Assembly: GCA_002723275.1 (NCBI GenBank)
Contig: PBNZ01000030.1
Coordinates: 23,145-87,144 of the forward strand
Length of the DNA: 64,000 nt
Direction: 5' to 3'
Origin: Planctomycetaceae bacterium
Lineage (GTDB): Bacteria > Planctomycetota > Planctomycetia > Pirellulales > Pirellulaceae
Shown here: positions 13,994 to 60,680 of the stretch, piece by piece
Layout of the letters: every line of letters begins with the position of its first letter
Position numbering within the stretch: the first letter of the stretch is position 1
The notes under the pieces: generated by a model
What the model was told of the DNA's origin: nothing
What the model saw: only the letters and a program-made list of their open reading frames with translations
Databases searched by the model: none
Made by a program: the position numbers and the translations under genes

Positions 13994-14821
13994 GTGAATA
14001 GTATTCATATCGGACCGTATCGGGTAGGGAGCGATCAGCCTATCTTGCTGATCGCAGGTCCTTGCGTTTTGCAGAATGATTCTCTGGCTTTATTAATCGC
14101 GGAACATTTGGCGAAACTTGCGCAGAAATTCGACGTTCAACTCGTATTCAAAGCTTCATTCGACAAGGCAAATCGGACAAGCATTGATTCCGAGCGAGGA
14201 CCGGGTTTGGAGGCGGGGTTGAGGATGTTGGAACGGGTGAAGCAGGAAACCTCGCTTCCTGTGACCACCGATATTCACGAGCCACAACAAGCGGCGCCGG
14301 TGGGGCACGTCTGCGACCTGCTGCAGATCCCCGCTTTTTTGGCGAGACAAACTGATCTTTTGGTGGCGGCAGCGACTACCGAGAAGGCAATCAATGTGAA
14401 GAAGGGACAGTTCATGGCGCCGTGGGATATGCGGCACGTCGTGGGCAAACTCAAAGCCGCCGGGTGTCAAAATGTGATGCTTTGCGAGCGAGGAACATTT
14501 TTCGGCTACGGCCAACTCGTCAACGATATGCGAGCTCTCGTACAAATGCGTGACTTTGAAGTGCCCGTCGTATTTGACGCGACGCACAGTGTCCAGCAGC
14601 CCAGTGGTGGTGCGACGACGGGCGGTAATCGTGACATGGTTGCTCCCTTGGCTCGAGCGGCTACAGCCGTTGGCATTGATGGATTGTTCATCGAAACCCA
14701 TCCGAATCCTGATGAATCACCGAGCGATGGTCCCAATATGGTGCCGCTCGACGAATTGGAGTCTTTATTGCAGCAGGTAATTGCCATTCGACATGCCATG
14801 AATGATGCGGGTGGGCATTGA
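13994..14821 (+). CDS. kdsA: 3-deoxy-8-phosphooctulonate synthase (KDO-8-P synthase)
   Basis: Condenses arabinose 5-phosphate and phosphoenolpyruvate to KDO 8-phosphate for lipopolysaccharide core synthesis. Family landmarks are [11 protein letters not shown] near the N terminus, [73 protein letters not shown] and the end [21 protein letters not shown]. The asparagine in NVKKGQF points to the metal-independent class. The start is GTG 13994 or the TTG codon directly before it; both follow the purine-rich AGAGAAGAG. Its presence implies an LPS-like outer membrane. Confidence 0.96.
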
Positions 14822-55824: not shown

Positions 55825-57658
55825 GCTCTTTCTGCGATATGCGCTGCTGTTGTTTTGTTTGGGGTCGATTCTGATCGGTGTTAATTCCCAACTGATGGCT
55901 GCCCCTCAAGCAGTGGACTCGTTGAGCGAATTGCGTGGCGAACTTCGAGAAGCCGGGAAGTTCTACAAGAACGGTGAGTTTCGCAAGGCCGCTGAAATCG
56001 TTCAGCAAGTTCAACTGGATTTTGAAAAACTTCCCGCTGAGGCCCAAAAAGATCGGCGGCGTTATGCTGCTCTTGCTGAGGTATTACGGAAAGCTCGCGC
56101 TTTGTTAGAGCTTGAGGGGCTTTCGATTCGAGTGGCGAAGCCGGTAGAAGCTTCCAAACCCGTTGAGCAACGTGCCGCGACACAAACGGTTAGCTATGCA
56201 GATGATGTCTACCCAAACCTGAAGAAGCGATGCGGCGATTGTCATGTTGACGACCGACAGGGTGGTTTCAGTATGGCGGATTACGCCTTACTGATGAGAG
56301 GCGGTAAATCGGGCACGGCGATTTTTCGGAAGAATGGGAGCAAAAGCCCGATCGTCGAACGCATTTTGGCCGGGGAGATGCCACCCGATGGACCATCTTT
56401 TCCCGCTGCTGAATTGCAAACGTTGATCGCCTGGATCGATCAGGGCGCCCGGCTCGATCGAAAGCCAGATCCTGAGCCGACCAATCAGGCGATCACGACG
56501 AACCGCGATTTGCCGGCGGCCGATGGGGAAGTCAGTTTCGCCCAGCACATCGCTCCGCTTTTCGCGGAACAATGTGTTTCATGTCATGGAAACAATAATC
56601 CGCGCAACGATTTGAGTCTCGCAACCTATGCCCGTATGCAACAAGGGGGGGATGCAGGATCTCTCTGGGAAGCCGGCCAGCCCAATGCCAGTCTGCTTGT
56701 TCGCAAATTAAAAGGACTCGGCGATGGCCAGAGAATGCCACTGAATCGTCCGCCATTGAGTGATGCGCAGATCGCGATGGTGGAACGGTGGATTCAGGCG
56801 GGTGCGACTTTCGATGGGGATGCACCCAACCAGCCCATCCAGGATCTTGCTACGGCAATGCGTTTGAAGACCGCTTCCGCGGAAGAGCTGAGCGAGGAGC
56901 GGCAGGCTTTGGCTCGGAAGTCATGGGGACTTGTCTTTGCTGGGCAAGAGCCCGAGTTTCACGCTTCCGACCATTTTTTGCTCGTTGGAAATGATGGACA
57001 AGAACTGCTCGCCGAGGTAGCCCGTGATGCGGAATCCCTCTTCGACAAAGTTGGTAAGGTGTTTCCGTTGCGATCCGACTCGCAGGCAGTCAAAGGTCGA
57101 CTGAGTTTGTTTTTATTGCCTGATTCGTACGACTACCATGAATTTGCTCAAATGGTCGAACAGCGATCCGTCCCGCCGGATTGGACTGGCCACTGGGCAA
57201 CACCTGGATTGGACGCCTATCTCGTCACGTTAAGACCGCGAAATGCGGACGATCGCGAACGTTTCGAGACCGATCTTTGTCGCAGTCTTGTTGGAACACA
57301 AATTGAATTGTCTGGGGCCTTTCCCAAGTGGTTCGTGGATGGGACGGTCGAGTTGATCCATGACCGCGTTTTTAAGCGTTCCCGACGAGGCAGAGATGCG
57401 AATCAGCTTCTGACCGAGGCTTTTGCGGGGGTCACTAAGCCAAAGCAGGTCATGGATGGTTCTCTGCCACCGAGTCAGGCAAAGCTGTTGAGAGCCGATT
57501 TTGTCCAGAATCTATTTCGAAAGACCGGGGCTTACCAGGCCGTGATTGAGGAGGTTTCTGCCGGAGCTGACTTCACGGAATCGGTTGAAAAACAGTATGG
57601 AAAGCCGCCAGAAGGCCTGATGGCCCAATGGCTGACCAGCAAAAAAAAGGGCCGGTGA
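55772..57658 (+). CDS. Exported protein with two planctomycete cytochrome c motifs
   Basis: A 628-residue protein. A hydrophobic leader (about residues 20-40: LRYALLLFCLGSILIGV) directs export. A helical region follows, then two planctomycete-type cytochrome c domains with CGDCH (154-158) and CVSCH (268-272), each followed by a distal MPP or MPL motif (GEMPPDGPSF and RMPLNRPPLSD). The last 250 residues contain FVDGTVELIHDR and LLTEAFAGVT, resembling a peptidase-like (DUF1570-type) domain without a clear HExxH. ATG 55772 is preferred; ATG 55718 is possible and would lengthen the overlap with the HELGH gene. Function unknown. Confidence 0.8.
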   Translation: MFRKSLLPNELPGDTIRKLFLRYALLLFCLGSILIGVNSQLMAAPQAVDSLSELRGELREAGKFYKNGEFRKAAEIVQQVQLDFEKLPAEAQKDRRRYAALAEVLRKARALLELEGLSIRVAKPVEASKPVEQRAATQTVSYADDVYPNLKKRCGDCHVDDRQGGFSMADYALLMRGGKSGTAIFRKNGSKSPIVERILAGEMPPDGPSFPAAELQTLIAWIDQGARLDRKPDPEPTNQAITTNRDLPAADGEVSFAQHIAPLFAEQCVSCHGNNNPRNDLSLATYARMQQGGDAGSLWEAGQPNASLLVRKLKGLGDGQRMPLNRPPLSDAQIAMVERWIQAGATFDGDAPNQPIQDLATAMRLKTASAEELSEERQALARKSWGLVFAGQEPEFHASDHFLLVGNDGQELLAEVARDAESLFDKVGKVFPLRSDSQAVKGRLSLFLLPDSYDYHEFAQMVEQRSVPPDWTGHWATPGLDAYLVTLRPRNADDRERFETDLCRSLVGTQIELSGAFPKWFVDGTVELIHDRVFKRSRRGRDANQLLTEAFAGVTKPKQVMDGSLPPSQAKLLRADFVQNLFRKTGAYQAVIEEVSAGADFTESVEKQYGKPPEGLMAQWLTSKKKGR

Positions 57659-57700
57659 TGATCTGCTTGTTCTGTCCGAAAGGGAAAAGAGAGGCTTGTC

Positions 57701-57729
57701 TTGCTTCCAACGGCATGCCTGTACATAAT
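57701..57729 (+). promoter_or_regulatory. Possible promoter for the aro leader and DAHP synthase gene
   Basis: TTGCTT (57701-57706) and CATAAT (57724-57729) are 17 bases apart. The expected start at about 57736 coincides with the ATG of the leader ORF, which would make its message leaderless. This is inference from spacing only. Confidence 0.35.
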
Positions 57730-57735
57730 GTTGGC

Positions 57736-57813
57736 ATGAAACGCTCATGGTTCCGCTACTTTTGGTTTTTCTACTTTACCGGACTTTGTCCCGGGGCCGG
57801 AGGCATTTCGTAA
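57736..57813 (+). CDS. Aromatic-rich leader peptide upstream of DAHP synthase
   Basis: A 25-codon ORF in which residues 5-14 read WFRYFWFFYF: two Trp, two Tyr and five Phe in ten positions. It then ends TGLCPGAGGIS and TAA. Such runs of the pathway's end products are the signature of attenuator leader peptides. No good Shine-Dalgarno lies before ATG 57736; either the transcript starts at the ATG or translation begins at ATG 57658, 26 codons upstream in the same frame, which has AAGGG and overlaps the stop of the cytochrome gene. It lies between the cytochrome gene and the attenuator hairpin. Confidence 0.7.
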   Translation: MKRSWFRYFWFFYFTGLCPGAGGIS

Positions 57814-57876
57814 GGAACCATCCGACAGCAAACTCTCAAAGGCCCTGAGATCCAAGCCAGTTCTCGGGGCTTTTTT
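57779..57876 (+). terminator. Transcription attenuator in front of DAHP synthase gene
   Basis: Terminator: GCCCTGAGA (57842-57850) pairs with TCTCGGGGC (57862-57870), 9 bp with one G-T pair, followed by six T residues. Antiterminator: CGGGGCC (57792-57798) can pair with GGCCCTG (57841-57847), which includes the left arm of the terminator. Protector: CCGGAC (57779-57784) can pair with GTCC-CGG (57788-57794), which covers part of the antiterminator. The three are mutually exclusive, as in the trp and phe attenuators. A ribosome stalled on the aromatic codons (57748-57777) would block the protector and allow read-through. Confidence 0.75.
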
Positions 57877-57952
57877 AATTCACAATTCTTAATCACAACG
57901 CCACCCCACTTTAGGCTCAAAAAATTCCCTCAGCTAAACGGAGTCCGATTCG

Positions 57953-58966
57953 ATGATTGTTGTCATGAAACACGGTGCCCCCCAGGACCAAGTTGACCAT
58001 ATGGTTTCTCGCGTAGAGGGCTTGGGGCTCAAGGCTCATGTCATCGTCGGGACCGAACGAACGGTGATTGCTGCGATTGGTGAAAAACGTGAAGAAACGC
58101 GCCAATCGTTGGAGAGTGGACCCGGAGTTGCCGAGGTCGTTCCGATTCTCGCGCCCTACAAAGTGGCAAGCGTCGAAGTCAAGCCCGAGCCAACGGTCGT
58201 GAAAGCCGGTAGTTTGACCGTAGGGAAGGGCACCGTGGGAATGATCGCCGGTCCCTGCAGTGTTGAGTCGGAAGAGCAAATCTTCAAGTCCGCTCATGCG
58301 GTAAAGGCTGCTGGGGCGACGGCACTTCGAGGTGGTGCTTTCAAGCCTCGTACTAGCCCTTACAGTTTCCAGGGGATGAAGGAAGAGGGGCTTAAGTTGC
58401 TGGCGGCAGCAAGAGAAGAGACCGGTTTAGCCGTGGTCACCGAGGTGATGTCGACCGACGACGTCGAGTTGGTTGCTGAGTATGCCGATGTGTTGCAGAT
58501 TGGTGCTCGCAACATGCAGAATTATCGTCTTCTCGAAGCGGTTGGTGGTTGCGGTCGTGCCGTGTTACTGAAACGAGGGGCCAGTGCCACGCTCGATGAA
58601 CTGCTCTTGGCGGCCGAATACATCCTCAATGAAGGCAATGCAAATGTTATGCTTTGCGAGCGCGGGATTCGTACCTTTGAGTCGCACACCCGTTTCACAC
58701 TGCCGCTTGCGACCGTAATCTATCTCCATCAGAAGACTCATCTGCCCATCGTCGTTGATCCTTCTCATGGGACCGGTCACGCAAATCTGGTCCCCGAAAT
58801 GGCCGTGGCCAGCGTTGCAGCCGGAGCTGATGGCTTGATTGTCGAAGTGCATCCAGAGCCGGAAAATGCAATGAGTGACGGTTATCAATCGCTTACCTTC
58901 GACCAATTCGGTGACATGATGGCGCGTTGTCGTCGTGTTGCTGAGGCAGTCGATCGAACGATGTAG
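57953..58966 (+). CDS. aroF: DAHP synthase, type I-beta with N-terminal regulatory domain
   Basis: Condenses phosphoenolpyruvate and erythrose 4-phosphate to 3-deoxy-D-arabino-heptulosonate 7-phosphate, the first step of aromatic amino acid synthesis. The 337 residues comprise a ferredoxin-like N-terminal domain (about 1-70, [14 protein letters not shown]), the known feedback site of AroF/AroG-beta enzymes, and the (beta/alpha)8 barrel with [49 protein letters not shown] and VDPSHGTGH. The upstream leader peptide and attenuator suggest that its transcription responds to charged aromatic tRNAs as well. Confidence 0.96.
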
Positions 58967-59247
58967 GCTGCACCGGCTTTCTGAGATTCGATGATACAAC
59001 GTTGGAATTGAGCCTCGTCAGGCGGAAGGCGAGGCCCCATGTGTCACGTCAGCGTTGAACGTCGTTTGATCCGCATGATTGGTTTTGGGCAGGAGCCTCG
59101 TCGACGTGGTGGAAGCTTGCCGCTGCATGGCTTTGCGATGGGAGTGCTGGTTCGGTCAACAAAGGTCGGTTCTACAGGCTCTTGAGAGTGATGAGCCAGC
59201 TTTGGTCGCTATTTCTCAATTCATGGCACGCCGTCATAATGCTTAGC

Positions 59248-60680
59248 ATGAATGATGAGCACCGTGTCGGAACTGACCGTGGCACTCCTCTGAGTCGTGA
59301 CATTTCATTCTGGGGAATGTCGATCCTCCAATTCCTTGGTGCTTTCAACGACAACCTATACAAGCAACTCATGCTGCTGCGCGCGATACCGGTGGGTGTT
59401 GCATCTTTGGGGCAGGATCAACAGGATTTGGAAACGATCGTGTTTTCATTGCCGTTCGTTTTGTTTTCTGTTTATGCCGGATTCTTATCCGATCGTTACA
59501 GCAAGAAAACGATCATTGTGATCAGCAAGTTTGCAGAAATCGCTGCAATGGCTTTGGGGTTGCGGCATTTCTGGCCTATGCAACGACTGGATATGCCGGC
59601 TTGCTGTTTACCCTGTTTTTGATGGGGATCCAAAGTGCGTTTTTTGGACCAGGTAAATATGAGATTCCTCCCGAACTGTTCCGGCAACGCGAGCTGCCTC
59701 ACGCCAACGGCATCATTCTGATGCTGACTTTTCTGGCGATCATTTTCGGCATGGTGAGCGCCGGATTCTTGGATACCTGGCTGATCAAATGAACTGAACC
59801 CTTAGTGACAGGTGCCTCGAAACTCGCGATCGGATCTGCGTTTTGTGTGGGGATCGCGGTGATCGGTACCGTGACGGCTTTGTTGGTGCGATATGTACCG
59901 CCGGCCCAGCCCGATCTAAAGTTCAGTCTCTCGTCGCTTCTCATTCGCTCCGATACGTTCAGAGTTTTGCGTCAAGATCGTCCCTTGGTTTCGGCCATTC
60001 TGGCGTCGAGTATGTTCTGGCTGGTGTCAGGAATTGCGATTCAGGCCGTCAATTCTTTGGGGGTCGTGCAGTTGCAACTGAGTACGTTGTTGACGAGCAT
60101 CATGAATGGTGTCGTCGGCCTGGGGATTGCCGCTGGAGCGATTATCGGCGAACGGCTCTGCAACGCCGGAGGTGATCGTAAGGTCATTCGCGTCGGGCTC
60201 TGGGGCATCGTCATCTGTTTGACGCTCCTATCGATCTCGTGGCCCACAGGAAAGACCGTTGAGATTCCGGTGGAGCCAGCGGCAGTCGATTCGGGGGGAC
60301 TGCAACAAGAGCTTCCGCAAAATCAATCGGTATCGCAGTTTGAACATACCGTGTTAACGAAGCATGTACCGACCTATCACTATTTGTTGGGATTTCGTGG
60401 GGCGCTGATGGTCCTTTCTTCGTTGGCCGTTTCAGCCGATTTTTTTGCGATTCCGCTCCAGGTTTTTATTCAATCCAGGCCGCCCGATGATCAGAGAGAT
60501 CGGATGATTGCGGTGATGAATCAGGCTAATTTCGTCGCTATCATGCTGTCCGGTATTGTTTATGGGAATTTTAGCCGCATGATCGTTGTCCTGGAGTGGC
60601 CACGCAGTCCAGTTTTTGGGTTAATGGCTCTACTCATCCTGCCGTTACTAATGTTCTATCGGCCGACGTTAGAAAGATGA
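59248..60680 (+). pseudogene. LplT-like MFS transporter, frameshifted and with an in-frame TGA
   Basis: A major-facilitator transporter related to the lysophospholipid transporter LplT (about 478 residues if intact). Three pieces are seen. The first (from ATG 59248) includes FWGMSILQFLGAFNDNLYKQ and LFSVYAGFLSDRYSKK, and its frame is lost at a G4 run (59556-59559). One extra G would restore MALGVAAFLAYATTGYAG in the next frame. The second piece runs to a TGA at 59790-59792, and the third continues in the same frame from there to 60680 with VPPAQPDLKF and further spans. Either the gene is decaying or the sequence has two errors here. It lies 28 bases before the SIS gene. Confidence 0.8.

Follow-up and report, generated by a model that had tools for sequence, protein, structure and literature searches.

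A predicted ribosome-mediated attenuator with an aromatic leader upstream of the DAHP synthase gene aroF in Planctomycetota

Based on the comparative data reported here, we suggest that aroF, the 3-deoxy-7-phosphoheptulonate (DAHP) synthase gene of a Planctomycetaceae bacterium, is very probably controlled by a ribosome-mediated transcription attenuator, through which the charging of tRNA-Phe, tRNA-Tyr and tRNA-Trp would set the level of the enzyme. The element was noticed in a 64,000-nucleotide stretch of DNA, here called the window. It consists of a short leader ORF dense in aromatic codons followed by two mutually exclusive RNA helices, and comparable elements precede DAHP synthase genes in many relatives.

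Results

The product of aroF exceeds the cut-offs of two DAHP synthase models (Table 1). A search of the whole genome with the PF00793 profile gave two matches, aroF and one KDO8P synthase gene (window 14015-14788; TIGR01362 and NF003543 cut-offs exceeded), and PF01474, which describes the other type of DAHP synthase, had no match in the genome, the assembly being rated 96.6% complete. Because the second PF00793 match is a KDO8P synthase and PF01474 is absent, aroF is the single entry enzyme of the shikimate pathway found in this genome. At 59182-60680 (+) of the window, a transporter gene is split into two ORFs that differ in frame and are separated by a further stop; its matches to LplT and acyl-ACP acyltransferase models fall far short of the cut-off, and the gene is either a pseudogene or an assembly error.

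Table 1. Features of the predicted attenuator and aroF, in window coordinates
Feature	Position	Strand	Remarks
-35-like hexamer TTGCTT	57701..57706	+	17 bases 5' of the -10-like hexamer
-10-like hexamer CATAAT	57724..57729	+	6 bases 5' of the leader ATG at 57736
Leader ORF, 25 codons, MKRSWFRYFWFFYFTGLCPGAGGIS	57736..57813	+	ATG 57736-57738, predicted +1 (leaderless); stop TAA, last base 57813
Sensor codons W F R Y F W F F Y F	57748..57777	+	nine of ten aromatic; TGG TTC CGC TAC TTT TGG TTT TTC TAC TTT
Weak possible protector hairpin GGAC-TTT-GTCC	57781..57791	+	seen in the stalled fold with arm 4 made
Antiterminator 5' strand (region 2)	57787..57799	+	inside the leader ORF; pairing energy with 57840-57851, -17.3 kcal/mol
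Intrinsic terminator hairpin (regions 3 and 4)	57838..57874	+	inner arms 57841-57850 and 57862-57871; folding
Antiterminator 3' strand	57840..57851	+	overlaps the terminator 5' arm (region 3); folding, swap test
T6 tract of the terminator	57871..57876	+	sequence
aroF (DAHP synthase, 337 aa)	57953..58966	+	ATG at 57953; NF006421 and TIGR01361 cut-offs exceeded

An earlier note on this DNA had pointed to the 25-codon leader and its cluster of nine aromatic codons among ten, and its coordinates proved right. When the 400 bases upstream of aroF in the window were shuffled 2000 times with dinucleotides preserved, none of the shuffles reached seven aromatic codons in ten. However, twelve start-to-stop ORFs of at least 20 aa overlap positions 57550-58000, and therefore the leader ORF alone proves nothing and conservation must decide.

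From a scan of public genomes, the best 80 of at least 584 DAHP synthase loci were kept, giving 81 loci together with the window. At a threshold of five aromatic codons in ten, a short ORF lies within 400 bases upstream at 46 of the 81 DAHP synthase loci, versus seven of the 315 upstream sequences taken from other genes of those loci; dinucleotide shuffles gave 70 of 1620, and reverse complements three of 81. At a threshold of seven in ten, the DAHP synthase loci gave 20 of 81 versus 0 of 315 for the other genes, and neither reverse complements nor shuffles gave any. With a wider span of 600 bases and six aromatic codons in twelve, a leader was found at 48 of the 81 loci, including that of Roseimaritima sediminicola JC651, so that the aromatic codons are kept in relatives, as the earlier note had proposed to check. 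The remaining 33 loci lack a dense leader (fewer than six aromatic codons in twelve), and they were left out of the terminator, swap, codon, promoter and masked-fold analyses described below. At one locus among the closest relatives (L003, DAHP synthase 81% identical), promoter and terminator are kept and Trp, Tyr and Phe codons are only scattered; the leader frame there runs into the gene without a stop (L003:2700-3000), and this region is perhaps a decaying attenuator.

Two further samples extend the distribution. A sample of the phylum comprised 199 genomes, 151 of them with a DAHP synthase match at E <= 1e-60. Among 60 upstream stretches taken from near the top of that list, none of which is identical to the first set over the last 100 upstream bases, 22 have a leader and a terminator, and both are present in 11 of the 11 other genomes of the same class that have the gene. 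In a distant family (f44), in which DAHP synthase is 53-55% identical, six of eight genomes have leader and terminator, and the other two have shorter leaders, MYFKYFSIQIRCS and MYFYYNIRCS, followed by a similar terminator. The DAHP synthase leaders of this family (L116, L117, L122, L123, L120, L124; L111, L113) are Tyr-rich in sequence of 30-38% G+C, and six of the eight carry at the leader stop a TTAGGG that, by eye, is complementary to CCCTAA or CCCTGA in the terminator arm.

The class was sampled with a model (R1) built from 30 of the 46 loci used for the helix tests below. This sample of 118 genomes, 88 with a DAHP synthase gene at E <= 1e-110, includes the 11 same-class genomes of the phylum sample and overlaps the first set partly (L191 and L065 share a leader). 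R1 matched 0-600 bases upstream of 58 of the 88 genes; 79 match rows were tabulated and the others taken by eye, and none of these precedes a DAHP synthase gene left unmatched. Of the 30 genes lacking a match, 26 were read, eight of which have a leader and terminator (L201 being borderline), and two further ones that were read have both. In total, 68 of the 88 genes have a leader, 18 do not and two, at contig ends, were unreadable (G264, G292).

The earlier note had left the leader start between a leaderless ATG and 57658. From the spacing of TTGCTT and CATAAT to the ATG at 57736, the leader AUG is predicted to be the first base of the transcript, whereas the in-frame ATGs at 57628, 57658 and 57715 were rejected as leader starts because they lack a well placed -10; on sequence grounds, the doubt over the start is largely settled in favor of 57736. 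A generic promoter and terminator scan of the region gave no match. Promoters were counted at 45 of the 48 leader loci, three having no usable ATG. A -10-like hexamer lies at a spacing of 6 in 11 of these 45 ATG leaders versus about 0.9 in shuffles, and at a spacing of 7 in eight versus about 0.8. All 18 leaders with the hexamer 5-8 bases before the ATG also have a TTG 16-18 bases 5' of the hexamer. We predict that the transcript starts at the leader AUG at these 18 of the 45 loci, the window included. The other 27 have no -10-like hexamer 5-8 bases before the ATG, and their transcripts may start further upstream.

Behind the leader, the claim of an intrinsic terminator ending in six T residues 77 bases before the aroF start was confirmed by sequence and folding, the hairpin having an energy of about -18 to -19.3 kcal/mol. 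That the generic scan mentioned above did not pick it up is probably because it allowed only loops of 3-8, and the 321-base region as a whole has no unusual degree of structure (z 0.66, with 75 of 100 shuffles folding equally well or better). At 46 of the 48 leader loci, a hairpin followed by T residues begins 17-55 bases past the leader stop. In the 30-locus alignment, nine of 12 pairs of the terminator stem change on both sides, and none of 500 shuffles scored as high on any measure. In the window, the terminator and the antiterminator share the terminator 5' arm and are mutually exclusive.

For the antiterminator, a fixed column alignment showed modest co-variation (83.3% paired versus 81.7% in shuffles, with 17-92 of 500 shuffles as high). 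Because region 2 seems poorly aligned there, we used an alignment-free swap test, in which region 2 was taken as the 34 bases beginning 6 after the last aromatic codon, and the region 2 of each locus was paired with its own region 3 or with that of other loci. This and the other helix tests covered 46 of the 48 leader loci, L064 and L082 being left out since the script found no terminator there. Own partners paired with a mean of -18.9 kcal/mol versus -14.5 (sd 0.41) for permuted partners (z -10.7), none of 10000 permutations was as good, and 39 of the 46 loci beat their own median swap. By contrast, six controls (pre-ATG sequence, aromatic codons, the stop-to-terminator stretch, post-terminator sequence, reversed region 2 and region 4) gave z values from -1.3 to +1.5. 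The antiterminator is locus-specific over the 46 loci.

Compensatory change in the stems of relatives, the second comparison proposed in the earlier note, is thus seen as co-variation of the terminator and locus specificity of the antiterminator. The note had also described protector, antiterminator and terminator as one mutually exclusive set; this is borne out for the latter two, but the protector is a weak, short hairpin and found no support in the comparison (swap z -0.8; fold energy z -1.5 relative to shuffles). At 40 of the 46 loci, the leader ORF extends beyond the 3' end of region 2, and therefore a ribosome at the stop could cover region 2 directly and a protector may be unneeded. The layout known from trp and phe operons, with leader codons, terminator and antiterminator, is present across loci.

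Folding with a masked ribosome gave structures that fit such a switch. With the ribosome stalled in the aromatic cluster and arm 4 not yet made, the antiterminator formed at 41 of 46 loci; with the ribosome at the leader stop, the terminator formed at all 46; without translation, it formed at 42. Once arm 4 was present, the terminator was again the minimum at 32 of the 46 loci even with a stalled ribosome. The window is among these (-25.3 kcal/mol for the stalled fold before arm 4 is made; -31.4 kcal/mol with arm 4 and the terminator formed). Therefore, antitermination must be kinetic.

Together, we suggest the following model. RNA polymerase would start at or beside 57736, yielding a transcript that, as judged from promoter placement, begins with the leader AUG, and a ribosome would translate the leader. 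When all three aromatic tRNAs are charged, the ribosome would reach the stop and cover region 2; region 3 would then pair with region 4 in the terminator predicted by folding, and aroF would be off. When any aromatic tRNA is in short supply, the ribosome would stall in the sensor codons and leave region 2 free to pair with region 3 while region 4 is still to be transcribed, so that the locus-specific antiterminator would form and aroF would be on. RNA that is not translated would default to the terminator fold.

Which amino acids are sensed was approached through codon content, using, in each of the 48 leaders, the stretch of twelve codons that ends with the last aromatic one. Among these 572 codons are 181 Phe, 90 Tyr and 63 Trp codons. 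All three aromatics occur in 39 of the 48 leaders, eight lacking Trp and one lacking Tyr. Relative to long ORFs of the same loci, Phe is enriched 11.0-fold, Tyr 8.8-fold and Trp 11.9-fold, figures that were computed over 576 codons, the true number being 572. The leaders were picked for Trp, Phe and Tyr, which biases the summed enrichment; yet the near-equal enrichment of the three is not forced by selection on their total. From these codons we infer that all three are sensed, and equally; the suggestion in the earlier note that the gene senses all three aromatics fits the counts and keeps this conditional standing. Among the Phe sensor codons, 71% are TTT versus 32% in the background, a preference that may keep the stretch unpaired or slow its decoding.

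The alternative that keeps the most weight, though we consider it unlikely, is that the same attenuator responds mainly to Phe and that the Tyr and Trp codons are passengers. Phe is indeed the commonest sensor residue, with 181 of the 334 aromatic codons and 33 of the 48 last positions, and the aroR leader (FYF) of Corynebacterium glutamicum reportedly responds to Phe but not to Tyr (PMC11802643). Against this, Tyr and Trp are enriched about as strongly as Phe, 47 of the 48 leaders contain Tyr and 40 contain Trp, Tyr is by eye the commonest in several leaders of the distant family, and upstream of the two trpE-like genes of this genome no attenuator was seen.

Elements of the same construction also precede genes of other amino-acid pathways. 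Of 20 fetched R1 matches away from aroF, 16 lie before leuA, two before a citramalate synthase gene and two (L165 and L170) before neither. The leuA leaders found are rich in Leu codons, such as MNQNLLLLQLLLITPGC, and the citramalate synthase leaders in Ile and Val codons, such as MEIIGIAVIIIAIS. One leuA and two citramalate synthase proteins pass curated cut-offs (TIGR00973 and TIGR00977), and the remaining genes were named from conserved protein starts. Across the class sample, a second model (R2), built from 14 leuA leaders, matched at most 700 bases upstream of 66 of 114 leuA genes; no fewer than 51 of the 66 belong to genomes outside the R2 training set. From 43 R2 matches not before leuA, many of them aroF sites, 12 were fetched together with four further R1 matches; six of these 16 precede citramalate synthase, most with Ile/Val-rich leaders.

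The genome of the window itself has two such candidates in stretches that contain N. Before leuA (L173; G000:C31, reverse strand), a leader MFTRLRXLXLLSLLALGR and a terminator make up a candidate Leu attenuator. Before citramalate synthase (L144; G000:C14:68372-68412), XIGIIRRSSPA, with a putative start codon, and a terminator make up a candidate Ile attenuator. Leaders similar to that of L144 were seen at L151, L164, L210, L211, L212, L213, L214 and L218. The codons thus switch with the pathway, from aromatic to Leu to Ile/Val, and no other single observation speaks as strongly for stalling by codon supply. The like construction at leuA and citramalate synthase makes the aroF element one of a set at pathway entry enzymes.

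This switch of codons bears on a second alternative, in which the leader would act as a sequence-specific nascent arrest peptide of the TnaC or SecM kind and stalling would not depend on codon supply. Several leaders share an aromatic-dense core and related tails such as FYFSPPGRGAGG, as an arrest peptide might. However, the residue at each position varies (entropy 2.5-3.7 bits; the last position is aromatic by choice) while composition is kept, the common tail reflects the coding of region 2, whose letters track region 3 of the same locus, and the leuA and citramalate synthase leaders carry the residues of their own pathways. Given the variability and the pathway-matched codons, we reject an arrest peptide as very improbable. 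Less probable still is that the region works as a protein-bound attenuator or as an RNA that binds a metabolite or a tRNA (riboswitch or T-box), although control of aromatic genes by T-boxes and TRAP occurs in other phyla. The conserved part here is a coding cluster of matching amino acids, and Rfam covariance models searched over 57300-58300 at E up to 5 gave no relevant attenuator, leader or T-box match, the four matches all being unrelated and far below the gathering score; ten loci likewise gave no match at the gathering score, and a riboswitch or T-box was rejected for want of a relevant Rfam match. Finally, that an ordinary terminator of the upstream gene, a same-strand neighbor with its end at 57658, merely adjoins a chance aromatic ORF has next to no probability and is refuted by conservation, for although ten of the 16 further model matches are ordinary terminators or unrelated sequence, leader, antiterminator and terminator co-occur at DAHP synthase genes, the controls being close to zero, and the promoter sits between the upstream gene and the leader.

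Discussion

The data thus favor an attenuator that responds to codon supply, and we suggest, with more reserve than for the aroF element itself, that it is probably one member of an old set of codon-matched attenuators in Planctomycetota. This set would act at the entry enzymes of the aromatic, leucine and isoleucine pathways, namely DAHP synthase, leuA and citramalate synthase, often with leaderless leader cistrons, and its aroF member, by pooling Trp, Phe and Tyr codons, would work as a three-amino-acid OR gate. If this is true, ribosome-mediated attenuation extends to a phylum without a described case in the literature searched, and one leader, by pooling three amino acids, governs the step that the branches of a pathway share. 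It would also imply that transcription and translation are closely coupled in planctomycete cells, which have long been discussed for their compartment-like membranes. In cultured planctomycetes, for instance Roseimaritima sediminicola JC651, the element offers a simple way to put amino-acid regulation to the test.

Attenuation of DAHP synthase is itself known in Corynebacterium, and an aroR-aroF attenuator of Corynebacterium glutamicum was reportedly treated by Neshat et al. in 2014. The E. coli trpL and pheL attenuators serve terminal branches with one amino acid each and their scheme has a protector stem, whereas the element described here would serve the common first step with three amino acids, as judged by codons, has an unsupported protector and places region 2 inside the ORF. 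The likeness to trpL and pheL (PMC11802643) lies in the regulatory codons, the terminator, the antiterminator and the coupling of translation to transcription.

The earlier note knew of no described case in a planctomycete, and this agrees with our search of the open-licence literature for planctomycete terms together with attenuation or leader peptides, which returned none in the portions of the articles retrieved, PMC12125101 included. PMC4833913, in its retrieved portion, deals with short-distance leader genes in general, planctomycetes included, and there names neither aroF nor DAHP. As far as the excerpts go, the closest described case is aroR-aroF of C. glutamicum, in which a short aromatic leader ORF (FYF) before a DAHP synthase gene is described as acting in ribosome-stalling attenuation (excerpt of PMC11802643), the attenuator having been predicted in PMC4046766, likewise seen as an excerpt. 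The likeness is one of layout only. For aroR, the excerpt names three aromatic codons and no Trp, whereas the window leader has nine, with Trp, Tyr and Phe; moreover, the C. glutamicum aroF is given there as one of two DAHP synthases with a Phe-only response, while in the genome studied here, which belongs to another phylum, one DAHP synthase was found.

For the leaderless start, the excerpt of PMC7298713 provides a precedent in Sinorhizobium meliloti trpL, where the transcript begins directly with the leader ATG and the attenuator lies behind the ORF. That system concerns Trp and trpE(G) in Alphaproteobacteria and has a known 5' end, whereas the 5' end of the aroF leader is predicted. For the sister elements, the excerpt of PMC1262725 describes the LEU element of Actinobacteria, in which a Leu-rich leader precedes isopropylmalate synthase and a pseudoknot pairs with the Shine-Dalgarno box. 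In Planctomycetota, the leuA elements resemble it in their Leu-rich leader, but they have a terminator and match the model built from the aroF loci.
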